A stretch of 53,594 bases of DNA from Bacillota bacterium (GTDB taxonomy: Bacteria > Bacillota > Clostridia > Acetivibrionales > DUMC01). Made by a program: the position numbers and the translations under genes. Within the stretch, counting starts at the first letter, position 1. Every line of letters begins with the position of its first letter. Below the pieces are notes generated by a model that was not told the DNA's origin, did no database searches, and saw nothing but the letters and a program-made list of their open reading frames with translations. Where the stretch lies: NCBI GenBank assembly GCA_013314855.1, contig JABUEW010000011.1, forward strand, positions 1 to 53,594. The letters run 5' to 3'. Shown here in pieces: positions 124-19,299 of this stretch.

Positions 124-3100
124 ACATCAATTCCTTATAGGTACGATAAAAACTATTGTATAGTTCTAGCGTATTTCCTTCAATCCTGTGTTTCAATTCC
201 TTATAGGTACGATAAAAACAGGCGGTCAGGATGCAGAATGATTTGAAGTTCCCACGGTTTCAATTCCTTATAGGTACGATAAAAACGGCGAAGGTTACGC
301 AAGAAAAATGAACAAATCGAAAGTTTCAATTCCTTATAGGTACGATAAAAACGAAGCCGAACAAATCATATCGGAAATATACTCACTCTGTTTCAATTCC
401 TTATAGGTACGATAAAAACACTGTTGAAGATGTTGATGCAAAAGAATTATAAAAGTGTTTCAATTCCTTATAGGTACGATAAAAACTTAGGCCGTGAATA
501 TGTTGATTACAGCATGCACGACCGTTTCAATTCCTTATAGGTACGATAAAAACTCAGGGATTTGATAGAAAAATACGTTATTGGCTTGGGGTTTCAATTC
601 CTTATAGGTACGATAAAAACGGAAAAGCGGAAAAACCAGGAATACAAGGAATACCGGTTTCAATTCCTTATAGGTACGATAAAAACCCATTCAGAAGAGT
701 CAGAATTTATAAGCCGATTTTCGTTTCAATTCCTTATAGGTACGATAAAAACAATAAACAAAAGTATGTCTGAACATGTGCGGAGTAACCTGTTTCAATT
801 CCTTATAGGTACGATAAAAACTTGTTTTTAGCCTCGGCTTCAATTTGCGTATTCATAGTTTCAATTCCTTATAGGTACGATAAAAACATTGAAGATTGGG
901 GGGTGAACCTTGAACTATGAAGTGGCGTTTCAATTCCTTATAGGTACGATAAAAACACAACCTCCTTTAGGCTGATTTGTCCTTGTAATAGTGTTTCAAT
1001 TCCTTATAGGTACGATAAAAACGCAGAAAAAATTGAAGAAGCTTACAAGGAATTGGAGTTTCAATTCCTTATAGGTACGATAAAAACCTTGAGTATTCTT
1101 ATCATGGGAATACTCATGAAGAGCTGTTTCAATTCCTTATAGGTACGATAAAAACTTTTCCGTATCAACATAGTATGTGCTTATCTTGTTAGTTTCAATT
1201 CCTTATAGGTACGATAAAAACTCCAACGTTGAATTATGTGTTCCTCCGGGAGCGAGGTGGTTTCAATTCCTTATAGGTACGATAAAAACCTACGTATAAC
1301 TTGACATCTATAGACCTGCAACCGTGGTTTCAATTCCTTATAGGTACGATAAAAACTTAGATCGTCCCTTCTTGTGATATAAGACTGATCTGGTTTCAAT
1401 TCCTTATAGGTACGATAAAAACTTTCCGTCTTTAATCTCTGGAGCACCTACTCCATCTTGTTTCAATTCCTTATAGGTACGATAAAAACTTTTCCGTCTT
1501 TAATCTCTGGAGCACCTACTCCATCTTGTTTCAATTCCTTATAGGTACGATAAAAACGTGGTTGTTGACTGGTCATGCCCCAATGCTTCCTGGTTTCAAT
1601 TCCTTATAGGTACGATAAAAACTGTTACGCCACATTTGCCCCGTTTACAGTTAAACGTGTTTCAATTCCTTATAGGTACGATAAAAACCATTATACATTT
1701 ACCGGACGGAAAGCGGATTGTCAGTTTCAATTCCTTATAGGTACGATAAAAACTTTCCGTCTTTAATCTCTGGAGCACCTACTCCATCTTGTTTCAATTC
1801 CTTATAGGTACGATAAAAACATATGTTCATGAAAGGTCATAGCAACGCAGGAAGCGGGTTTCAATTCCTTATAGGTACGATAAAAACCCCCTGCCGGCAG
1901 GCGAATGAGAGCCGGCAATAAAAGTTTCAATTCCTTATAGGTACGATAAAAACTACAAGGACGATATTTGTGAGTATTTCAACAAAATGTTTCAATTCCT
2001 TATAGGTACGATAAAAACATTAAAATCTACAAGTTGCTCATCTTCAATAGCTGATAGTTTCAATTCCTTATAGGTACGATAAAAACGGAGATAGGGATTG
2101 ATACTGGATTTTTCAACCGAAGTTTCAATTCCTTATAGGTACGATAAAAACGTGAATGCATGGAACAATATCGGACAGTGGATTTCCGAGTTTCAATTCC
2201 TTATAGGTACGATAAAAACAGACAAGAGAATGCAAACATGCTCTATAAGTTCCATAGGTTTCAATTCCTTATAGGTACGATAAAAACCCACAGCAGACAG
2301 CAGACAGCGTGGACACCGTGCCACAGTTTCAATTCCTTATAGGTACGATAAAAACGGACAATACTTTGCTCTACACAAAGACCGTGACCGGGTTTCAATT
2401 CCTTATAGGTACGATAAAAACGTGGCATTTTCTAGCTGCTAGGTGGACTACAAGTGAGAGTTTCAATTCCTTATAGGTACGATAAAAACCAAAGGCACAT
2501 ACCAAAGTTCACAGGTGCAGACAAACGGTTTCAATTCCTTATAGGTACGATAAAAACAAAAAAATCTTGGGCGGCTTCTATTGAAGATGGCTAGTTTCAA
2601 TTCCTTATAGGTACGATAAAAACTTTCAGGTATCTTTTCTGCTTCCTGTTTGTAACGGGGTTTCAATTCCTTATAGGTACGATAAAAACGAAGGAGGTTG
2701 AATAACGTGACGTGGTATAAAAAAGGTTTCAATTCCTTATAGGTACGATAAAAACCCTGCCATATTGTTCTTCTTTTATTCTTTCATTAGTAGGTTTCAA
2801 TTCCTTATAGGTACGATAAAAACTAAGAACAAGAGCAAAAACAAAGACCCGACAGCTCAGTTTCAATTCCTTATAGGTACGATAAAAACGGAAGCTTTTA
2901 GACTTGTTTTAGGCAAGTCTAAAGCGTTTCAATTCCTTATAGGTACGATAAAAACGTTATACCACTTACCAAATCTGCAAACATTTCAGCCGGTTTCAAT
3001 TCCTTATAGGTACGATAAAAACACAGTTACTGTATCTCTTGTTGTCCCTTCAATATCAGTTTCAATTCCTTATAGGTACGATAAAAACAAAACCACCTCT

Positions 3101-6100
3101 TACAAAGTATTTACTAATATAAGTTGTTTCAATTCCTTATAGGTACGATAAAAACCTACAATTATAACCGCTGATATGTTATCTTCATTGGGTTTCAATT
3201 CCTTATAGGTACGATAAAAACTTAGGTGCTTGGGAAAAGAAGGAGCAAGGGTTTGGCAGTTTCAATTCCTTATAGGTACGATAAAAACTATATCTCCTGC
3301 TTACTTTTATTATTTATGGAGGTGTGAGTTTCAATTCCTTATAGGTACGATAAAAACAAACGTGTATCCGGCGGGGGAAATACGACGGGTAAGTTTCAAT
3401 TCCTTATAGGTACGATAAAAACGTTCAATAACCTCTTGCATCGCCCCAATCGCTACCAGTTTCAATTCCTTATAGGTACGATAAAAACCCTTAAGTACCA
3501 ACTCTTCCTCCAGAAATAAGTCGATATGTTTCAATTCCTTATAGGTACGATAAAAACGAAGGAGCAAGTTGATGTATTTCTAAGCATACATCAGTTTCAA
3601 TTCCTTATAGGTACGATAAAAACATGCAAAGCCGCTCACGATACAGAACAAAGAACGAGGTTTCAATTCCTTATAGGTACGATAAAAACTGACTAATGAT
3701 GCACTTGTTGTACCAACTGTATTATCAGTTTCAATTCCTTATAGGTACGATAAAAACGGAGGATGCTTTATGAAAAAGTGGGGAGAAAAGGATTTGTTTC
3801 AATTCCTTATAGGTACGATAAAAACGCAACAACATATACCGCCCCGCTTACAAGAAAATTCTGTTTCAATTCCTTATAGGTACGATAAAAACTATTCAAT
3901 ACCAGCTTAACTAAAAAAGTTAATGGAGGTGGTTTCAATTCCTTATAGGTACGATAAAAACATAGGGATAATTTGATAAAATCAGTTTGTGAAGTGTGTT
4001 TCAATTCCTTATAGGTACGATAAAAACTTCACAGCATTATCTATTTTCTGCAGTACCCTCTCATGTTTCAATTCCTTATAGGTACGATAAAAACATATGT
4101 TGTGGTATACTGGAGGGTTTGCTATATGCCGTTTCAATTCCTTATAGGTACGATAAAAACGTACCTCAATCCTATCTTCTGTATATCTTTGCAATTGGTT
4201 TCAATTCCTTATAGGTACGATAAAAACGTAAATATGACGTACCAGACAAATATCGTCAAACACTGTTTCAATTCCTTATAGGTACGATAAAAACTATGAA
4301 ACTGGGGCTTTTGTATATTATTCTGAAGGGTTTCAATTCCTTATAGGTACGATAAAAACTATCAACTAGATCCTGCTCCTTAATTTGTAACAAAGTTTCA
4401 ATTCCTTATAGGTACGATAAAAACTTTTACTAATTATACAAAATAACAGAACTGTAAAATTAGTTTCAATTCCTTATAGGTACGATAAAAACTGGAGCAT
4501 ATCACTTGTTATCAAAATATCACCCCCCGTTTCAATTCCTTATAGGTACGATAAAAACTAATTTACACACAGTATATAAATAAAGGAATAACCAAGTTTC
4601 AATTCCTTATAGGTACGATAAAAACTCAAGAATATGCTTCTTTCCTTTCTCTTGATTATGAGTTTCAATTCCTTATAGGTACGATAAAAACATAATTTAA
4701 TCAATTGGTAATTTTCATAAATATTATATGTTTCAATTCCTTATAGGTACGATAAAAACACAGGATATATGATGAGCCAGTATGGGACTACTACGAGTTT
4801 CAATTCCTTATAGGTACGATAAAAACATGGGCACTGTCCGTCAAAATAGGAAAAACGGAGCTTTGTTTCAATTCCTTATAGGTACGATAAAAACTTGATG
4901 AATATTTTGCCTATTGTGATAGCTTTAATAGTTTCAATTCCTTATAGGTACGATAAAAACGATTTGGCGTTTGTTGGTCTTCGAAAACAGGAAAGCGTGT
5001 TTCAATTCCTTATAGGTACGATAAAAACGGATAGAAGCATATACCTTAGAATTGGCTTCTACCAAGTTTCAATTCCTTATAGGTACGATAAAAACAGTTT
5101 TGGTGCGAGGAAATAGCGGCGCAATACCACATGTTTCAATTCCTTATAGGTACGATAAAAACTAAAGAGCCGATTTTTTTTGGCTCTTATCAAACCCCGT
5201 TTCAATTCCTTATAGGTACGATAAAAACCAGGGCAACCAATGCCATCGAGAGCCTGTAATATGAGTTTCAATTCCTTATAGGTACGATAAAAACTATGCG
5301 GGATCAGATTTCTTCCTTTCATTTGAATTAGGAGTTTCAATTCCTTATAGGTACGATAAAAACTACGTATTTCACCACTACCAGATATTTTTACAGAATG
5401 TTTCAATTCCTTATAGGTACGATAAAAACAAGTAGATGGGAATATATATACCGTTAGCATGTTAGGTTTCAATTCCTTATAGGTACGATAAAAACTTTGT
5501 TTCCATTCATACCTTCCATTTGGTCTTTTGGTTTCAATTCCTTATAGGTACGATAAAAACGTTGGCGGCCAGGAAGATTTCATCCGGAGCAACTGGCGTT
5601 TCAATTCCTTATAGGTACGATAAAAACGTTGCCGCTCGGCAAAGTATTCGCCGGCATATCGTAAGTTTCAATTCCTTATAGGTACGATAAAAACTATCCT
5701 TTGGGCTCACAGCTTCGATACCAAACCATTCGGTTTCAATTCCTTATAGGTACGATAAAAACTTGATGGAAATAGTAAACACAACGGACCAGGGCATAGG
5801 TTTCAATTCCTTATAGGTACGATAAAAACCTGCCGAACACTTTATTTGCTGTATCAAGTGCAAGCGGTTTCAATTCCTTATAGGTACGATAAAAACCCTC
5901 GAAGCTGCATTATGGCAGGGATTGGCTAAAGGCGTTTCAATTCCTTATAGGTACGATAAAAACTATCGGGCTGGACTTGCGTTTTAGACTTGAACGACAG
6001 TTTCAATTCCTTATAGGTACGATAAAAACCTGCTGCGCTTTCTACGTCAATATCGTCTGTTTCAAGCCGGTTTCAATTCCTTATAGGTACGATAAAAACT

Positions 6101-9100
6101 ATCCTCGCAATCGCCATCAGTACCCATGAGGTTAGGTTTCAATTCCTTATAGGTACGATAAAAACAAGATAATGCTAGATGTGGGACACGGTGGGGATGA
6201 GTTTCAATTCCTTATAGGTACGATAAAAACGTAATGGTTCAATTTTAATAAATTATTTAAAAATACGAGTTTCAATTCCTTATAGGTACGATAAAAACTT
6301 GATGCTTGTCCTGCTTAATTTTTTAATCTTCTGCCGGTTTCAATTCCTTATAGGTACGATAAAAACTACCAAGCCGCCGGACGTAGGCTTTGTGCCGTTG
6401 TGGGTTTCAATTCCTTATAGGTACGATAAAAACCATACAGTGACCTCATACCACTCGTCATTTATTTCTTGTTTCAATTCCTTATAGGTACGATAAAAAC
6501 AAGAAATGAAGTCTTACGGCCAAATATTCAGCAGGGGTTTCAATTCCTTATAGGTACGATAAAAACTATGCTCAGGATAATACCTTGCTCTATACAAAGA
6601 CAGGTTTCAATTCCTTATAGGTACGATAAAAACTGTCAATGCTGTTATTGTATTTCCAGAAAATTTTGTCGAGTTTCAATTCCTTATAGGTACGATAAAA
6701 ACTATCCCTCCCTTCCTTCCTGGAGATGTAGTCCAGCAGTTTCAATTCCTTATAGGTACGATAAAAACGTTTTGTCACCATTAATACTTATTTTGCTTAC
6801 CTTTTGTTTCAATTCCTTATAGGTACGATAAAAACGTTATTCAAACTGATGTCAATTGAAAATATGAAGCAGTTTCAATTCCTTATAGGTACGATAAAAA
6901 CTGTACAAGATGACGAATTACGAGAATCTTACGATAGTTAGTTTCAATTCCTTATAGGTACGATAAAAACGCATACAGGATAAGGCGTATGCATTAGGTA
7001 TTACGGGGTTTCAATTCCTTATAGGTACGATAAAAACTTAGTTTTTTCCCATTTCCTCAATATCCTCCGGCCTGTTTCAATTCCTTATAGGTACGATAAA
7101 AACGTAACTTGTGCGAATAATGCAACAGCACCTTCCTCAGTTTCAATTCCTTATAGGTACGATAAAAACTGCAGGGATTAGAGCGTATGCGGGAAGTCGC
7201 ATGGATGTTTCAATTCCTTATAGGTACGATAAAAACGTAATGAAGTATATTGGTTATTTGGTAGAGGCGGAAGTTTCAATTCCTTATAGGTACGATAAAA
7301 ACGTCTAAACTCAATATGTGTGTTGTGTTGAAGATTGAGTTTCAATTCCTTATAGGTACGATAAAAACGGAGGAAGGTATATGATTAAGGTTGTGATGGA
7401 AAATGAGTTTCAATTCCTTATAGGTACGATAAAAACAAAACTATATTATCCTTACTAATATCCTGATTCGTAGTTTCAATTCCTTATAGGTACGATAAAA
7501 ACCCTGATAATATCCATACCGCCACATGCATAAAATAGTTTCAATTCCTTATAGGTACGATAAAAACTTTTGTAAATGCTTGGGGATATATGAAAATTGG
7601 AGCGCGTTTCAATTCCTTATAGGTACGATAAAAACCTGAATACAGAAAACATAAAGCAAAGATAACAGCTAAGTTTCAATTCCTTATAGGTACGATAAAA
7701 ACCTATGTATAGTATGTCTTCTAGCTTTTCCGCTCTGTGTTTCAATTCCTTATAGGTACGATAAAAACCAGGCGGACCAGGAACGAGGGTATATATGAGG
7801 GCAGCAACGTTTCAATTCCTTATAGGTACGATAAAAACTTTAGACATTTTGTATATTATCATATCTACACCTCCTGTTTCAATTCCTTATAGGTACGATA
7901 AAAACATGGCAAGTGGCAAAATGGCAATGGAGATAATTGCCGGTTTCAATTCCTTATAGGTACGATAAAAACTTGCGAAGAAGATACACGAATAAACCCA
8001 AAAGTCTCGTTTCAATTCCTTATAGGTACGATAAAAACTGGAAAGTCTGATAGAAAAACGATATATGGAGATATGTTTCAATTCCTTATAGGTACGATAA
8101 AAACTTCACCTATTCCGTCAACATAAATCATAATCGCACGGTTTCAATTCCTTATAGGTACGATAAAAACACACCCTGATTAAGAGTCAAAATTTTTTAT
8201 TTCCCGCGTTTCAATTCCTTATAGGTACGATAAAAACTTATTGTCATCTGATCCTGGGAAAACATACTTACTTTGTTTCAATTCCTTATAGGTACGATAA
8301 AAACACAATGAGGCAAAAGTATGTCTGATACCGTGGGGTGGTTTCAATTCCTTATAGGTACGATAAAAACTCTTTCCGGCGAAGCAGGAGCATAAGTATG
8401 AGACAAAGTTTCAATTCCTTATAGGTACGATAAAAACCAAAAAATACTTTTTTTGCGCTTTATGTTGTACAATATGTTTCAATTCCTTATAGGTACGATA
8501 AAAACGCTAATAAAAAGTTACGGCGTAATTGATGATGATACGTTTCAATTCCTTATAGGTACGATAAAAACTGTTTTCCAGAGCAAGTTCTTGCTGGTCA
8601 AAAGGCAAGTTTCAATTCCTTATAGGTACGATAAAAACAATTGATATGCCTAATACGACTATATTCAAACTGCTTTGTTTCAATTCCTTATAGGTACGAT
8701 AAAAACGGAAAAATCGATTGTTGAAGCTGCAAGCCTTGACGGTGCGTTTCAATTCCTTATAGGTACGATAAAAACAAAGCACTTACTGAGGCAGGATTTT
8801 CATACCGTAAGGGTTTCAATTCCTTATAGGTACGATAAAAACCTTGGGGACTGGTTGCGGCACAAAAAGCAGCTTTGAGTTTCAATTCCTTATAGGTACG
8901 ATAAAAACAAAAATAAACAATTGGGCCATAAATACAAAACTTGCTGGTTTCAATTCCTTATAGGTACGATAAAAACTTATTACTTTGTCGCCTTGTTTGA
9001 AAGGCGTATTGTGTTTCAATTCCTTATAGGTACGATAAAAACCAATATTACGCAATTTTCGGTTAATTGAGCGTCGATAGTTTCAATTCCTTATAGGTAC

Positions 9101-12100
9101 GATAAAAACGGAGATCGATTATTTCTCCGCCTCGCTCGTTTATCCATGGTTTCAATTCCTTATAGGTACGATAAAAACTTCCTGAACTCCATATAAAGGT
9201 ACGGCATGTAGAAAGTTTCAATTCCTTATAGGTACGATAAAAACAGAACTTTTGCCTTTATTGTCGTGTGAAGCATTAAGGTTTCAATTCCTTATAGGTA
9301 CGATAAAAACTCATGGGCGGGCAAAAATTCATCTTGGACGGGCTTGGTTTCAATTCCTTATAGGTACGATAAAAACATAAAATGATTAGGATATTCAATA
9401 AATACGCAACAATGGTTTCAATTCCTTATAGGTACGATAAAAACTAATTAAATCCATCCTTGAGTTTATCCATAATTTCCTTGTTTCAATTCCTTATAGG
9501 TACGATAAAAACCTTGCGCTTGCGCCGACCTATGGGGGGGGGTATTGCCGGTTTCAATTCCTTATAGGTACGATAAAAACTTTTTATCGTTACTCCACCA
9601 ACTACCTTGTGTTAGAGTTTCAATTCCTTATAGGTACGATAAAAACATAAAATGATTAGGATATTCAATAAATACGCAACAATGGTTTCAATTCCTTATA
9701 GGTACGATAAAAACTGAATATGAAGCTGAAAAACTTGCTTATGTGTTCGTTATGTTTCAATTCCTTATAGGTACGATAAAAACATAGAATTGTTCGGGGG
9801 TGTTATCTTTATATCCATAGTTTCAATTCCTTATAGGTACGATAAAAACAATTATTTCATCAAGATTTTTTTCTCTAATTTCCATGTTTCAATTCCTTAT
9901 AGGTACGATAAAAACCTCGCTTTACCCATTACAATTTTTCCTCCAATTCCTGTTTCAATTCCTTATAGGTACGATAAAAACGATTAGAGTTAATTAATAT
10001 ATAATAATAAAGGAGTGTTTCAATTCCTTATAGGTACGATAAAAACACAATATTTGTATCCCACTTGCCTTTCTATTTTGAGTGTTTCAATTCCTTATAG
10101 GTACGATAAAAACGGAAGCTAACCGAGGCGGCAATAAAATTTTCGACCCGGTTTCAATTCCTTATAGGTACGATAAAAACTCGTTTGCCATACCTTATCC
10201 CTCCTTTACCCTTTCAAGGTTTCAATTCCTTATAGGTACGATAAAAACTATAGTGAAGATGATATATTGAGAATGATATTCGAGGGTTTCAATTCCTTAT
10301 AGGTACGATAAAAACCTTGCGTTTTATCTCGGCTTGCTCCATAGATATTTCAGTGTTTCAATTCCTTATAGGTACGATAAAAACCGAAATCCCTACTAAA
10401 ACCATTTTGTTCGCATAAATCGTTTCAATTCCTTATAGGTACGATAAAAACTTTAGTATATTTTCAATACTCTTTGATATATTGGTAGTTTCAATTCCTT
10501 ATAGGTACGATAAAAACCTGACTTGGAAATATGCTATACCTATACCTGCACCACATGAAGTTTCAATTCCTTATAGGTACGATAAAAACTATTCCTGTCC
10601 GCAACCGCATTTATACCATCTACAGGTTTCAATTCCTTATAGGTACGATAAAAACTCTTCATGTGGTATGAGTTGACAGAATTTACCATAGTTTCAATTC
10701 CTTATAGGTACGATAAAAACCTATAACTATTGTAAACATCTTGTTCAGTCAAAACACCGTTTCAATTCCTTATAGGTACGATAAAAACTAATCCAGGTGG
10801 TTTACCTGGATTATTTTTTGCCTATGTTTCAATTCCTTATAGGTACGATAAAAACTTTCTGGTATCCCAGTTATATGATTATACTTATAATCAGTTTCAA
10901 TTCCTTATAGGTACGATAAAAACATATACTTTAATTTGTCAACAATTATTTGCATATTAGTTTCAATTCCTTATAGGTACGATAAAAACTAGCTTCCACC
11001 TTCATCTTGACTTTCACAAAATGCTATGTTTCAATTCCTTATAGGTACGATAAAAACACACTCTCCCAAGTGGTAGTGAGTCTTTTGTTCTAAGGTGTTT
11101 CAATTCCTTATAGGTACGATAAAAACTTGCACATACCTCCTTCAAAATTTTTATAAATAGTATTGTTTCAATTCCTTATAGGTACGATAAAAACTGAATA
11201 TGGGACCTATTGAGGGAGGTGACAAACCAAGTTTCAATTCCTTATAGGTACGATAAAAACAGGACGTTCTCCACCCTCTAAATATAAATAAACTTTAGTT
11301 TCAATTCCTTATAGGTACGATAAAAACGGGAATTGTTAGGATTAGACAAAATGTATCTTTTGGTGTTTCAATTCCTTATAGGTACGATAAAAACTGCCTA
11401 AGACTTTGTAAGGCGTAAGGCAATATTGGAGTTTCAATTCCTTATAGGTACGATAAAAACTAACTATACATTAACTTTACCTCTTATCCCTGGTATGTTT
11501 CAATTCCTTATAGGTACGATAAAAACTCAGTTACACTATATCCATACTGATACACACTATAGTTTCAATTCCTTATAGGTACGATAAAAACGATAGGACG
11601 CTGAAAGTCCACATGTTGGCAAAAGATGGTTTCAATTCCTTATAGGTACGATAAAAACCAAAAGTCGGGGGAACAAAAAAGTATATAAAGGCGCGTTTCA
11701 ATTCCTTATAGGTACGATAAAAACCAGGCGGGACAGCAACTATGACCTGTTATGCAGGCGATAGTTTCAATTCCTTATAGGTACGATAAAAACAATAACC
11801 TCAAAGCCTTGGGACAGTAGAATATTGCAGAGTTTCAATTCCTTATAGGTACGATAAAAACAAATGCGTATCAATAGATAAATGCCTATTGCCAGAAAGT
11901 TTCAATTCCTTATAGGTACGATAAAAACTATATATACCGGCATCAGGAAGGCAGATATACAGATGGCGTTTCAATTCCTTATAGGTACGATAAAAACTTT
12001 GCGATAGAAAGGGGGTTGAGACTGTGGACGCAAGTTTCAATTCCTTATAGGTACGATAAAAACTTACTACAAATGGTGAAGGAACTTTTACAGTTGCAAG

Positions 12101-15100
12101 GTTTCAATTCCTTATAGGTACGATAAAAACAGACTGGGATAGTCCGGATGATACGCTTGAGGCTACGGGTTTCAATTCCTTATAGGTACGATAAAAACGG
12201 ACAAACAGAAGAAACAATATTATTTGGAGAAACAAGTTTCAATTCCTTATAGGTACGATAAAAACTTTGTATTGGAAGTTATAAGGTTACTAACTACGAA
12301 TCGTTTCAATTCCTTATAGGTACGATAAAAACATAGGAGCAGCGTTAATCGTTTATGAGGAGGTCGAGTTTCAATTCCTTATAGGTACGATAAAAACGCT
12401 CTTCCAAAAGCCGCAAGCTCACTATGTCATCGTGTTTCAATTCCTTATAGGTACGATAAAAACTGCCAGGAGGCAGGCCATCAAAACCGATTGAATTAGT
12501 GTTTCAATTCCTTATAGGTACGATAAAAACATTGTATGCCAAAGTGAAGTGATTATATCGCCTGCAGTTTCAATTCCTTATAGGTACGATAAAAACACGT
12601 GGATCCGGAACTGAGGGAATACATGGAAGGCAGTTTCAATTCCTTATAGGTACGATAAAAACACAAAGAAACTGCCATGGCGCAAGACGATACCAGCAGT
12701 TTCAATTCCTTATAGGTACGATAAAAACTCAGTTTTAAATCGTCATCCTTTATCATTTTCCACGGTTTCAATTCCTTATAGGTACGATAAAAACTTGCAA
12801 TATGTTGCCAGCTATTCAACGGGAATGTCCCACGTTTCAATTCCTTATAGGTACGATAAAAACGGCCCTGTATTGCTTATATTTATTTTCCCGTCAACGG
12901 GTTTCAATTCCTTATAGGTACGATAAAAACTAGGCGGCTCTTTTATGCTTACCGTTGACGGGAAAAGTTTCAATTCCTTATAGGTACGATAAAAACCTAT
13001 TGCTCAATAAAAGGTATCGAAACTTCTTTCCAAGTTTCAATTCCTTATAGGTACGATAAAAACAATGTATTATCTCGTCTGTATTCATATCTTTTAGAAG
13101 TTTCAATTCCTTATAGGTACGATAAAAACTTGCGGCTGCTTGAATTCCGAGCCATATCCATTTGCCCACGTTTCAATTCCTTATAGGTACGATAAAAACC
13201 TATACACTGGCAGAGCAGGTGCTTCAAGATGCCGGATGTTTCAATTCCTTATAGGTACGATAAAAACCGAAAAAATAGCAGCAATTATTACCAGTGGCGG
13301 CGCGGGTTTCAATTCCTTATAGGTACGATAAAAACGGGCAGAAAGATGCTACGAAGGAGTGAAAGGAGTGAGTTTCAATTCCTTATAGGTACGATAAAAA
13401 CGGAAAAAGTGAACAACCAAACAATGTATGCGCTCACACAGTTTCAATTCCTTATAGGTACGATAAAAACACTGTTGTAGAAGAAACAGAAACGTATCCT
13501 TTCGTAGTTTCAATTCCTTATAGGTACGATAAAAACAAGGAATTATAGATAGAATGCTGGCAATGCAAAAATGTAGTTTCAATTCCTTATAGGTACGATA
13601 AAAACCATTTGTAAATATCTGGTCTTCAACCATTTTTATTGGTTTCAATTCCTTATAGGTACGATAAAAACATTTTTTCTCCAACCATAATTGCCAGAGT
13701 GCCTGTCAGTTTCAATTCCTTATAGGTACGATAAAAACCTATAAATGAAACTTTAGGAGAAGGAGGCAAATAATGTTTCAATTCCTTATAGGTACGATAA
13801 AAACTACGGGCCTGAAAAGAAACTCATTGAAATTAGGCCTGGTTTCAATTCCTTATAGGTACGATAAAAACTATAAATGAAACTTTAGGAGAAGGAGGCA
13901 AATAATGTTTCAATTCCTTATAGGTACGATAAAAACGAAGGGCAGCTATATGGCGCAGCTGCAACGGTTAACAGTTTCAATTCCTTATAGGTACGATAAA
14001 AACGATTTTTCCACGTCCAAGCTATGAATAGTAGACAGCAGTTTCAATTCCTTATAGGTACGATAAAAACTCTATCTCCAAAAGACAAACTAAATTCAAA
14101 TGACATGTTTCAATTCCTTATAGGTACGATAAAAACTTAGGAGGATACAAATTCACTACCGGAGCTCCAGCATGTTTCAATTCCTTATAGGTACGATAAA
14201 AACTTGCATCTGCTACATTAGATACGCCTTCTGATACGGAATGTTTCAATTCCTTATAGGTACGATAAAAACTTGATTGTTAAAGTAAAATCTTTGAATT
14301 TTGCTGAAAGTTTCAATTCCTTATAGGTACGATAAAAACAAATAAAAAAATATTACGAAGGAGATGGGAAAAATGTGTTTCAATTCCTTATAGGTACGAT
14401 AAAAACTGAAATTTAAGATTAAGGATTAGGGATTAGGGAGGCGGTTTCAATTCCTTATAGGTACGATAAAAACGGGGATATACGAAGCGTGAAGGATTTC
14501 AATATGGATAGTTTCAATTCCTTATAGGTACGATAAAAACCGTGGCAGCGGTAATGGATATAATCATTCAGGCTACTGAGTTTCAATTCCTTATAGGTAC
14601 GATAAAAACGATGATATGATTTGATATTTGGAGAATCGGAAAATCTGTTTCAATTCCTTATAGGTACGATAAAAACCAAAACTCGTTTCACGGGATGCTT
14701 TGCGCCTTCCCAAAAGTTTCAATTCCTTATAGGTACGATAAAAACTTAGAAGTGCAAACTTTGATCCATCAGGGCCGCACTTGTTTCAATTCCTTATAGG
14801 TACGATAAAAACAAACCTCCAGGAATTGTAAGCAAAATTGCGAAAAAAAGTTTCAATTCCTTATAGGTACGATAAAAACTTGTTGTTTATATTCGTTTTG
14901 CATTTTAATATACTGGTTTCAATTCCTTATAGGTACGATAAAAACGGATGAACGCCACACCTAAGAAGCCAGCAAGCATGAGTTTCAATTCCTTATAGGT
15001 ACGATAAAAACTAAAACTCAAAAAAGGTTACGCAGTACGTTTTTACGGTTTCAATTCCTTATAGGTACGATAAAAACGTCTACTTGTTCAAGTACTTCTA

Positions 15101-17017
15101 AATCGATATATATAGGTTTCAATTCCTTATAGGTACGATAAAAACTGCATTTGTAAATATCTGGTCTTCAACCATTTTTATTGGTTTCAATTCCTTATAG
15201 GTACGATAAAAACCCTAATCCTGATACAGCGCCAAGCATTTCTGCGGCAAGTTTCAATTCCTTATAGGTACGATAAAAACCTAAAGTTGAATCAGAAATA
15301 TTAGTTACGTTGCAAAAGTTTCAATTCCTTATAGGTACGATAAAAACCGATTTTTCCACGTCCAAGCTATGAATAGTAGACAGCAGTTTCAATTCCTTAT
15401 AGGTACGATAAAAACTAATTGCCTAAAGCAGGAATAATATGCAAACGGAGTTTCAATTCCTTATAGGTACGATAAAAACTTATACATCTTTATCTCCCTT
15501 TAAATGACGTTTTTTGGTTTCAATTCCTTATAGGTACGATAAAAACTAAGATTCATCAATCCTCCTAGCATGGCTATCACTAGTTTCAATTCCTTATAGG
15601 TACGATAAAAACTACAAAAGGCATGGAGGAAGATTTTAGGCGGTGGCCGTTTCAATTCCTTATAGGTACGATAAAAACTGATAACTGGAAATTAAAGATG
15701 GGCAACGAAAAAGGTTTCAATTCCTTATAGGTACGATAAAAACGCATTAGTCATTATTTCTTCTTCGATGTAGCGGGGTAGTTTCAATTCCTTATAGGTA
15801 CGATAAAAACTGTTCTTGTTCTAGTAACATCTACAACCACCTCCCAGTTTCAATTCCTTATAGGTACGATAAAAACTTTTCGATATACTCATACTGCATG
15901 TCCAAGCCAACGGTTTCAATTCCTTATAGGTACGATAAAAACGATTTTCCCGTGATAGCTTTTATCATCGACACGATAGTTTCAATTCCTTATAGGTACG
16001 ATAAAAACCTTCTTCTTCTATCGCCTTGATGATGCGAACGACTTGTCGTTTCAATTCCTTATAGGTACGATAAAAACTTTGGTCGATAGGATTACGTATA
16101 TCCGTATGACCAAGTTTCAATTCCTTATAGGTACGATAAAAACACGTATTTCAAATTGACGAAATCAGGAACATCGACAGTTTCAATTCCTTATAGGTAC
16201 GATAAAAACTCTAGCTGAAAAAATACATCAATATGCACAGCAACAAAAGTTTCAATTCCTTATAGGTACGATAAAAACTTTCTGCTTTTTCCTCCGTCGT
16301 CAACGCCGGATATTCTGCGTTTCAATTCCTTATAGGTACGATAAAAACAGTATGACGATGGAAGAAAATATCCAAAAAGTAAAACAGTTTCAATTCCTTA
16401 TAGGTACGATAAAAACTATGAAGAATTTATTAACCCTGAACAACAAATTGAGTTTCAATTCCTTATAGGTACGATAAAAACGCTAAAGTTGTTCCAGAAT
16501 ACCGTTGATTAAAAATCAAGTTTCAATTCCTTATAGGTACGATAAAAACTTATACCACATCGGTATAATAGGCGCAAGAGGGGGTTGTTTCAATTCCTTA
16601 TAGGTACGATAAAAACGACAAACAATATTATTGTGGGCATAACGGATCCCAATCGTTTCAATTCCTTATAGGTACGATAAAAACATATAAGCCTTACGCC
16701 GTTTTCTTTGAGTTTGCGCTTGGTTTCAATTCCTTATAGGTACGATAAAAACGCTTGCTGAGATGTACTGCAAACAGATATTCGGGGAGTTTCAATTCCT
16801 TATAGGTACGATAAAAACTCTCCATATGTTCACAAATAGGTACAAATATTTCATGGGTTTCAATTCCTTATAGGTACGATAAAAACTTACTTTAGCACCA
16901 AATAAATTCATAACTTTCCTAGTTTCAATTCCTTATAGGTACGATAAAAACTATCTCCTCCACTCCCACAACAACCGAGCCAACCGAGTTTCAATTCCTT
17001 ATAGGTACGATAAAAAC
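124..17017 (-). CRISPR. Giant type I-B-like CRISPR array, about 253 repeats
   Basis: A 30-bp repeat recurs with a mean period of about 67 bp. On the + strand it begins GTTTCAATTCC and ends CGATAAAAAC. By hand I count 253 repeats and 252 spacers, mostly 35-38 nt with one of 42 nt (10518-10559); the count could be off by one or two. On the minus strand each repeat ends in ATTGAAAC, the usual 8-nt 5' handle of type I-B crRNAs, so transcription runs leftward. Two facts agree with that direction: the cas genes are also on the minus strand and abut the right end, and the leftmost repeat (124-153) is degenerate in its first four + strand bases, as trailer-end repeats usually are. I noticed no variant among the other repeats. 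Many short open frames cross the array, but they are repeat translations (FQFLIGTIKT, SIPYRYDKN, FYRTYKELK) and not genes. Five spacers occur more than once. Confidence 0.99.
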
Positions 17018-17182
17018 CCGTAAAAACTGCATAATATAATATCTTAATTTTAAAACACTTTTGCAAAAAATGCAAGGGTAAATTAGGAAAAAATAGAGTA
17101 ACCTTTATAATATCAAGCGTTTATATGTTTTCTGTTTATTCGTCGATTTCCTAGGGTTTTTGCACTATCGGACACCGACGAA
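17018..17182 (-). promoter_or_regulatory. CRISPR leader with pre-crRNA promoter
   Basis: This AT-rich stretch lies between the first repeat and the cas2 stop codon. On the minus strand it contains TTGCAT (17070-17075), a 17-bp spacer and TAAAAT (17047-17052), a well-spaced sigma-A-type promoter. Transcription would start near 17040, about 20 nt before the first repeat. The -35 box is part of a small palindrome, TTGCA-A5-TGCAA. The stretch has the position and composition of a type I leader, where new spacers are inserted. The promoter is inferred from sequence only. Confidence 0.75.
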
Positions 17183-17446
17183 CTACAACATTAAATCTGT
17201 AGGATTTTTTTCCAATCCCATAATTTCCCTATCTGTATATTTGGTTGTTCTAAAAGTATAAAAAATAACTGAATCCTCATCCTTATCTATTTTTGCTGAT
17301 AATTCATGCTTCAGCTTTTTGAAATTGGCATCACTGATTTCTCCTTCAAAAACTGAATTTTGTACCCAATGCAAATATTTTCTGCATATTTTAAGAATTT
17401 TCCCTACTCTTTTTTCACCTACATCATACACTAAGATAACAAAAAT
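17183..17446 (-). CDS. cas2: Cas2, CRISPR adaptation protein, probable ATT start
   Basis: Cas2 is the small ferredoxin-fold partner of Cas1 in the integrase complex that inserts new spacers. The protein carries VYDVGEKRVGKILK and HWVQNSVFEGE, which are typical of Cas2 in type I-B/III systems. The first conventional start (GTG, 17431) would remove most of the first beta strand. Extending in frame by five codons to ATT at 17446 gives MFVILVYDVGEKRV, the expected family N-terminus, and places a perfect GGAGGAG ribosome binding site (17452-17458) 5 nt upstream. I therefore call an 87-residue protein with a rare ATT start. It lies about 115 bp downstream of cas1 and directly before the leader, so it closes a cas6-cas1-cas2 operon. 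The family is certain; the start codon is likely but unproven. Confidence 0.93.
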   Translation of the reverse strand: MFVILVYDVGEKRVGKILKICRKYLHWVQNSVFEGEISDANFKKLKHELSAKIDKDEDSVIFYTFRTTKYTDREIMGLEKNPTDLML

Positions 17447-17560: not shown

Positions 17561-18553
17561 TTACCACATGCTTATATAAGGCTCGTATAATTTTTCTCCT
17601 ATTAAATGCTTTTCAAGTTTATACAGCTCGAGCCTGATTAAACGCCGGTATGACACTGAACGCCCAAGAGGTTTATATGAAAGTGTACTGTTCAATTTCT
17701 CATTTAACTGATTTATAAATATTTTCTTTCCATCATCATTTAGAATAATTCCTCCCATTTTATTTTCAAAGTGTTTTTGATTAAGCATCTTCTTTCCGAG
17801 AATTGTAAATATAGTGCGATCTACCAATAATGGCTTAAATATTTCGGCTATATCCAGATTTAACGTAAACCTTCTGTTATTAGTCGTATGCAAAAACCCA
17901 ATCCTCGGATCAAGGTGCGTTTTATAAATCTCACTTAATACTATAGTATATAAAACGCTATTACCAAAGCTGATAAGAGAATTTAAACGATTTAAAGGAG
18001 GTTGTTTTGTACGTTTTTCAAATAAAAAATCCGAATCATCCAAAATTGTGTCAAAACTACTGTAATATATATCCCTAGTGTTTCCTTCAATAGCCATCAT
18101 TTGATTTATATCCATATTCTTGCTCAGCTTTGATTTAAGTTCCTCTATCTTTTGTATGCCATATTCAAGATTTTTACCTCTATTATTATAATATTTTAAA
18201 ACAGTCAAAATATTTCTTATACTTCCCTCAACAATCCTGTATGCTATATCCTTCCTTTTTTCTTCATCAAGATAATACTCTGCCTGTTTCAAAATCATAT
18301 ACCCTGAATTGTAATGTTCCCTTGGGTAATATGTACCAGTGTAATATTCATGGTAATTGAAGAAATGCAGTAATATTTCCTTTTGTGATGCCAGTTCTAA
18401 GAATTTCTTTGTAACAGTAACTTCACCAAAAACATATAACTCATTAATATCTTCTATGGGCAAGTATTTATTACCCTCTTCACTTTCAAAAAATACAGTA
18501 TTATCTTTTCTTTTAAGTTCACCATCATTAAAAATATATGCGCTTTTTTTCAT
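17561..18553 (-). CDS. cas1: Cas1, CRISPR spacer integrase
   Basis: Cas1 is the metal-dependent integrase that, with Cas2, inserts protospacers at the leader end of the array. The 330-residue length is typical for type I-B Cas1. Likely metal ligands are Glu156 in MMAIEGNTRD, His222 in IGFLHTTNNRR and Glu237 in LDIAEIFKPLLVDR. The N-terminal beta-rich domain (about 1-75) and the helical catalytic domain (about 90-320) are both complete. Its ATG overlaps the cas6 stop codon (TAATG), which indicates translational coupling, and an AGGAG-type site sits about 7 nt upstream. No cas4 accompanies it, although many type I-B operons carry one. Cas4 may therefore be supplied from another locus or be absent. 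Confidence 0.97.
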   Translation of the reverse strand: MKKSAYIFNDGELKRKDNTVFFESEEGNKYLPIEDINELYVFGEVTVTKKFLELASQKEILLHFFNYHEYYTGTYYPREHYNSGYMILKQAEYYLDEEKRKDIAYRIVEGSIRNILTVLKYYNNRGKNLEYGIQKIEELKSKLSKNMDINQMMAIEGNTRDIYYSSFDTILDDSDFLFEKRTKQPPLNRLNSLISFGNSVLYTIVLSEIYKTHLDPRIGFLHTTNNRRFTLNLDIAEIFKPLLVDRTIFTILGKKMLNQKHFENKMGGIILNDDGKKIFINQLNEKLNSTLSYKPLGRSVSYRRLIRLELYKLEKHLIGEKLYEPYISMW

Positions 18554-19299
18554 TAGCTTCTCCTCTTACTATCTTCACACTCTATAAACTCAAAACACCC
18601 AAATCCCTGCGAATTCTTGCCTCCAAGGCCCGTGTTATATGCCAGAGTTATTAGGTCGGTATCCCCCTTTATAAGATACTCTCCCATCCAGCCTTTTATT
18701 ATAAAGTCTTTATACTTTGTTGTTACTTCTCTTTGTGTTTCAATAAATGCTTTTATTGTAAAGTTAATATTGTCAATGCTGGAACCATTAAACGCCTGAT
18801 ATTTTTTCTTCAAATTTTCTTTAACAAGTTCATAGAATTTTTCATCTCCCGGACCATAATAATATGTCTTTTTATTCTGATCAGTTGAGTAGACTACTAT
18901 AGGTGAAAGCATTCTTATTCTTGATTCAGGATTTATATTTGGAAATTTAACCTTTATATTCTCAAGATATATATTCTGGTCATAAAGCACAAGGTTATTC
19001 TTAATAATAGAAGTAGAGAAATCAATGAAGAAATCATCATAATGGGAGGATACCTCCAGGGTTACAGGAGAGTCATACTTAATTATTTTATTGTTATTAT
19101 CAATTCTATACGTACCCATTAACCTGGAAAAAGTGAATAGCTTGTAACGCCTTTTTTCATAGGTAAAGCCTTTATCATGTATAAATTTCTGTGTTTCTTT
19201 ATCTGTAATATTATTGTAGATAAAACCCTGCAGGATTTGATTATAGTATATGGGCAAAACAAGCTTCCCATTAAAAGTAAATTCAAACACAATTCTCAT
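18553..19299 (-). CDS. cas6: Cas6, pre-crRNA endoribonuclease
   Basis: Cas6 cuts the long pre-crRNA inside each repeat and leaves the 8-nt ATTGAAAC handle. The 248-residue protein has the family's opening (LPIYYNQILQGFIY), a candidate catalytic His41 in KFIHDKGF, and near the C-terminus the glycine-rich RNA-binding loop NTGLGGKNSQGFGCFE. It begins with ATG preceded by AAGGA and is the first gene of the cas6-cas1-cas2 operon. No effector gene (cas8, cas7, cas5, cas3) lies upstream: about 400 bp of non-coding DNA separates it from rnfB. The locus can therefore acquire spacers and process crRNA but needs an interference complex encoded elsewhere. Confidence 0.95.
   Translation of the reverse strand: MRIVFEFTFNGKLVLPIYYNQILQGFIYNNITDKETQKFIHDKGFTYEKRRYKLFTFSRLMGTYRIDNNNKIIKYDSPVTLEVSSHYDDFFIDFSTSIIKNNLVLYDQNIYLENIKVKFPNINPESRIRMLSPIVVYSTDQNKKTYYYGPGDEKFYELVKENLKKKYQAFNGSSIDNINFTIKAFIETQREVTTKYKDFIIKGWMGEYLIKGDTDLITLAYNTGLGGKNSQGFGCFEFIECEDSKRRS

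Follow-up and report, generated by a model that had tools for sequence, protein, structure and literature searches.

Overlapping spacers from opposite strands of one target point to a TTA PAM in a clostridial type I-B1 CRISPR array

Spacers 61 and 62 of a long CRISPR array in a draft clostridial genome appear to stem from opposite strands of one target site, with each spacer recording the TTA that serves as PAM of the other, a reading that we hold with a probability of about 0.93. The array lies within the window analysed here, a stretch of 53,594 nucleotides (positions 1 to 53,594 of contig JABUEW010000011.1, assembly GCA_013314855.1) from a Bacillota bacterium of the Acetivibrionales (DUMC01). 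A first-pass annotation had already proposed a single target sampled from both strands next to 5'-TTA; its coordinates, its letters and the 15-nt reverse-complementary spacer ends proved exact, and the proposal itself is supported by a second overlapping spacer pair, by the flanks of homologous phage sites and by a depletion of TTA inside the spacers.

The array spans positions 190 to 17017 and is read from the minus strand, which is the crRNA sense; the repeat then reads GTTTTTATCGTACCTATAAGGAATTGAAAC and ends in ATTGAAAC. It comprises 252 perfect 30-bp repeats and one degenerate terminal repeat just before position 190, which bears out the 252 spacers counted at first pass, 251 of them flanked by perfect repeats on both sides. 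The leader-proximal end is position 17017, where a putative A+T-rich leader region (17018 to 17182, minus strand) separates the array from cas2, and the degenerate repeat marks the opposite, leader-distal end at low coordinates. Numbering the spacers from the leader end as 1, spacer 61 (12931 to 12966, minus strand) reads TTTTCCCGTCAACGGTAAGCATAAAAGAGCCGCCTA in crRNA sense and spacer 62 (12864 to 12900, minus strand) reads CCGTTGACGGGAAAATAAATATAAGCAATACAGGGCC. The former consists of TTTTCCCGTCAACGG followed by TAAGC and further bases, the latter of CCGTTGACGGGAAAA followed by TAAAT and further bases, and the two spacers begin with 15 nt that are reverse complements of each other. Joined at this stretch, the two give a target of the form ...GCTTA-CCGTTGACGGGAAAA-TAAAT... 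(in full, the predicted site TTACCGTTGACGGGAAAATAA), in which TTA precedes the protospacer of spacer 62 and the TTA of the other strand precedes that of spacer 61.

A shared 15-mer could in principle arise by chance or from a motif that two unrelated targets happen to carry, in which case the deduced flanks would not be real. Spacers 130 and 243 indeed have an internal 15-mer in common without any end-to-end overlap and, since a 15-nt match alone thus occurs elsewhere, the case for spacers 61 and 62 rests on their end-to-end geometry and on the flanks. Their match reaches the exact 5' end of both spacers, and in 2000 first-order Markov simulations that modelled the genome's full set of 299 distinct spacers, no run produced a 5'-5' overlap of at least 15 nt (the longest was 13 nt) or one of at least 11 nt with TTA on both sides. 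With TTA on both flanks here and independently in the second overlapping pair and in phage homologues, we consider coincidence very unlikely even though the joint target was not found in the phages and genomes that were searched. The pair might also be an assembly artefact, given that a 17-kb repeat array had to be assembled in a draft genome of 252 contigs and that long arrays are hard to assemble. Yet an artefact would not align a common stretch exactly with the 5' ends of both spacers and leave TTA next to it, and the spacer-repeat-spacer unit of 103 nt could presumably be bridged by one read, which makes this explanation hardly credible.

Within one transcript, the region from 12834 to 12996 holds spacers 61 and 62 with their 15 nt of complementarity, and the pre-crRNA could form a stem, or the mature crRNAs could pair, with mutual interference as the outcome. 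The 15-bp stem between the two spacers forms in the predicted pre-crRNA fold; the segment that carries them is not unusually stable in that prediction (z -0.85).

A second overlapping pair is formed by spacer 67 (12531 to 12566, minus strand) and spacer 79 (11725 to 11763, minus strand), which overlap 5' to 5' by 11 nt on opposite strands and give TTA on both sides, each spacer providing the flank of the other. The joined 64-nt site translates as GGTATMTCYAGDIITSLWHT, and a codon-degenerate pattern derived from this peptide matched nine phage contigs. In eight of these nine (IMG/VR; L062 and L064-L070), the whole joined site is continuous, with 39-47 of 64 nt identical and the same reading frame (..TMTCYAGDI.TSLWHT..), and the join therefore represents a real contiguous locus. 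It lies in a phage gene of around 114 codons that follows the tape-measure gene, and spacer 60 maps to the end of that same gene. A 25-nt match beside the join, found among relatives by DNA search (genome G092), deviates from the site by an inserted base and has unlike flanking DNA, and was judged to be a chance match.

This second site also bears on whether spacers 61 and 62 might derive from opposite arms of an inverted repeat within a single target, without physical overlap. A short imperfect palindrome within the 15-mer (CCGT-TG-ACGG) makes a hairpin in the target conceivable, but such an arrangement would need TTA beside both arms and spacers that stop exactly at the arm ends, and the analogous site of spacers 67 and 79 is a single site according to its homologues; we regard this as most improbable. 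If, as we prefer, protospacers 61 and 62 overlap on one site, a single DNA molecule cannot have supplied both as duplexes, and we infer that the target was sampled from at least two copies.

Further overlaps were of no use for reading a PAM. Spacers 106 and 239 overlap by 10 nt, but their flanks (ACA and TCC) disagree and the overlap is probably due to chance; the flanks of 8-nt overlaps likewise disagree, and their number is as expected by chance. The sister arrays of Fonticella and of a related genome, G045, which we take to be probably Acetivibrio thermocellus, held no informative overlapping pairs, and no overlapping pair of any kind was found among the 143 distinct array spacers of G045. 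Separately, when the array at 190-17017 was considered together with a second array on contig C29 (L009:149-6040, spacers prefixed B), three near-coincident pairs on opposite strands were observed, B11/B18 (33 nt exact) and the diverged 58/B44 and 169/B26, which reflect sites bounded by TTA on each end or else spacers that were inserted flipped.

Flanks of other protospacers were accessible through phage homologues. Two spacer pairs, each made up of diverged versions of one site (87/B27 and 169/B26), yielded two more codon-degenerate patterns, NMGPIEGGDKP of a portal protein and EWFGIEAVSP of a Clp-like prohead protease, and these patterns match siphophage contigs, in two of which both sites are 130 bp apart (phage proteins of these contigs were checked with Pfam). 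Mapping all spacers on these phages at a minimum of 74% identity gave 25 matches compared to 1 for a control of reversed spacers. The nearest homologous flanks of 16 spacers of this genome (IMG/VR) were TTA in eight cases, TTG in three, and TAA, TGA, CAA, GTA and AAA once each, with T at position -3 in 13/16, T at -2 in 12/16 and A as last base in 13/16; these flanks were read from homologues (73-92% identical) rather than exact targets, and single flank bases may have drifted. Among the eight spacers of our 13-spacer table that had not been used to find the contigs, four show TTA (binomial p 5e-5 against 3%). TTA is the commonest flank among these homologous protospacers. Three spacers of G045 also match these phages (34-36/36 or 38/40), and their flanks are TTA, TTA and CCA/TCG.

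The spacers themselves carry a corresponding signal. TTA is their most depleted trinucleotide (209 observed versus 308 expected) and, when pooled with G045, a genome of the same repeat family, the most strand-asymmetric one (289 TTA versus 364 TAA, z -3.96). For this genome alone, the asymmetry is modest, at 209 TTA versus 242 TAA (plain binomial p 0.13) or, after correction for base composition, z -2.3 at rank 4, and the Fonticella array with its different repeat shows no such TTA signal. A similar pattern is known from the E. coli type I-E system, where AAG is depleted on the PAM strand and its complement less so (PMC6282206) and where the avoidance of internal AAG has been linked to primed rather than naive adaptation (PMC6282206). 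The E. coli avoidance was however observed experimentally and concerns AAG, while the TTA avoidance of this I-B system comes from natural arrays and has weaker statistics. Protospacers that were acquired more than once (25/45, 28/51, 47/49 and 228/232/233) keep an identical 5' end and vary only in their 3' end, by 1-2 nt, which is what a fixed PAM end would produce, and the same-strand diverged pair 156/219 implies TCA. Repeat acquisitions of equal length were also seen (110/114 and B6/B8), and the fact that re-acquisitions outnumber partly overlapping pairs suggests hot acquisition sites. As a separate observation, 41% of the spacers in arrays A and B start with T and 11% with G, and G makes up only 8% at the third base from the spacer 3' end (p around 1e-5 for each bias in array A).

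Our searches for the target of spacers 61 and 62 itself covered phages, plasmids, IMG/VR, 21 related virus records and 58 genomes of the order and did not recover it. The phage and plasmid search that the first-pass annotation had proposed was run with blastn, megablast and tblastn and returned only chance-level or repeat-like matches, with no target for the pair; in the 21 full phage records and 58 genomes, the two spacers were matched only by themselves, and neither joined site (61/62 or 67/79) had an exact match in IMG/VR. Three contigs (L019-L021), retrieved with a codon-degenerate pattern of FMLTVDGK, a peptide encoded by the 61/62 site, have nothing but this stretch in common and were rejected as the target. 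Among the phages, Paenibacillus phages Scottie and SV21 and Parageobacillus phage JGon-2020a have stretches that resemble the CRISPR repeat of this array and are possibly phage-borne mini-arrays or single repeats.

The position of the pair in the array provides some insight into its acquisition. Seven of the 23 spacers 57-79 match one siphophage family compared to 4 of 228 others (Fisher p 6e-6; permutation p 1e-4), spacers from both strands are present in this block, and spacers 61 and 62 are located within it. The block extends over approximately 11725-13230, and the siphophage family is that of contigs L062-L070. This points to successive acquisitions from phages of one kind, and leaves the first-pass idea of one infection or primed adaptation suggestive only: the enrichment for one phage family stands, but the timing is unreadable and the target was not found. 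Spacers 61 and 62 may therefore also have entered by naive acquisition in separate infections and be adjacent by chance, with the site correctly deduced and the timing uninformative. Neither order nor interval of acquisition can be read from the array, and where one protospacer was sampled repeatedly elsewhere, its duplicates lie at distances of 2 to 23 spacers; on the other hand, the pair sits in a block enriched for one phage family, and TTA avoidance inside spacers resembles the signature of primed adaptation in type I-E (PMC6282206). We consider separate infections a realistic possibility that we nonetheless rather doubt. Similarly tentative is the broader idea that a natural I-B array reveals its PAM without a known target, through overlapping opposite-strand spacers and strand-specific depletion of the PAM triplet, and that this depletion would reflect Cas3-coupled primed adaptation, as in type I-E, as the origin of most spacers of this repeat family.

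The system is an ordinary type I-B1 with a gene set that is intact in the genome. Its Cas1/2/4/6 complement is complete and split over two contigs, with cas2 (17183 to 17431; TIGR01573, Cas2b), a type I-B cas1 (17561 to 18553; TIGR03641, E 1.7e-135) and cas6 (18553 to 19299; TIGR01877, Cas6b according to PADLOC) on the minus strand of the window and Cas4 on contig C29 (L009:12731-13264). The latter contig further encodes cas8b, cas7 (Csh2), cas5 (Cas5h) and cas3 in one operon (L009:6630-12621), and its Cas8b1 (TM1802/Csh1) scores above the cut-offs of both TIGR02556 (E 1.7e-56) and TIGR02591 (E 2.7e-51). The second array lies beside this cas8b1 operon, has the same repeat as the window array and is interrupted by a transposase ORF resembling the IS110 family (L009:4506-5729). 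The sequence of the repeat contains the predicted crRNA 5' handle, ATTGAAAC. Adjoining the I-B operon, genes for Cmr1-like, Cmr6-like and Cas10c proteins (L009:13373-19214) come without cas1, cas2 or cas6 of their own, and this type III module probably shares the arrays with the I-B1 system, an arrangement that has been described before (PMC8482600). By manual assessment, 15 of 19 phage-mapped spacers appear to be antisense to phage genes (p 0.02, a count that assumes that neighbouring phage genes run in the same direction), a bias that would suit a type III module targeting RNA.

Taken as a mechanism, Cas1-Cas2, probably together with Cas4, would take up prespacers directly 3' of TTA and insert them so that the PAM-facing side becomes the 5' end of the spacer in the crRNA. 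A single phage site carrying TTA-N15-TAA would then have yielded spacers 61 and 62 from its two strands, which would explain the 15-nt overlap of their PAM-proximal ends and why each spacer holds the PAM of the other. Cas8b1 may read TTA during interference and Cas4 may set the PAM end, while the two spacers and their neighbours may share one phage family as their source, and acquisition may have proceeded in bursts that were possibly primed.

A clostridial I-B1 system that was previously uncharacterised, with an array of 252 spacers, gains a well-supported PAM here, and TTA could serve native genome editing. More generally, the array by itself can disclose a PAM when no genome of a target is at hand, either through spacers that overlap end to end or, by a second route, through diverged spacer pairs, whose codon-degenerate patterns lead to homologous phages. 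The first-pass PAM of TTA is supported, although one pair amounts to two readings rather than a complete PAM and, to judge by the phage flanks, TTG and further T-rich triplets seem to occur as well; TTA is probably the dominant PAM, beside which some variants are tolerated.

Such a PAM is ordinary and expected for the Cas8b1 family. Published Cas8b1 systems recognise TTN/TNA (A. thermocellus), YYD (T. maritima) and TTB/CCC (H. hispanica; PMC13199841), and TTA as read from two overlapping pairs and phage homologues fits their range of pyrimidines at -3 and -2. The first-pass comparison with TTN-like clostridial I-B PAMs is right for this Cas8b variant (PMC13199841, PMC10551041); other clostridial I-B systems have CC-type PAMs, as in C. 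difficile (PMC13199841) and T. kivui (PMC12044746). The I-B1 system of Acetivibrio (Clostridium/Hungateiclostridium) thermocellus has the same Cas8b variant, and its TTN/TNA, determined by depletion assay in another genus with another set of spacers, covers TTA (PMC13199841). The repeat of G045, GTTTTTATCGTACCTATGAGGAATTGAAAC, is one base off the repeat studied here. Our Cas8b also matches the TM1802 family of the Thermotoga maritima I-B1 system (Cas8b1), whose measured YYD is broader and includes TTA (PMC13199841), while our readings come from sequence and are mostly TTA. A further parallel is Parageobacillus thermoglucosidasius NCIMB 11955, a member of the Bacillota from another class with an experimental rather than sequence-derived PAM: there too, a Cas8b1 system stands beside a type III locus with a common repeat, and TTA was the best of all 64 triplets tested for its I-B1 system and flanks newly acquired spacers (PMC10551041).
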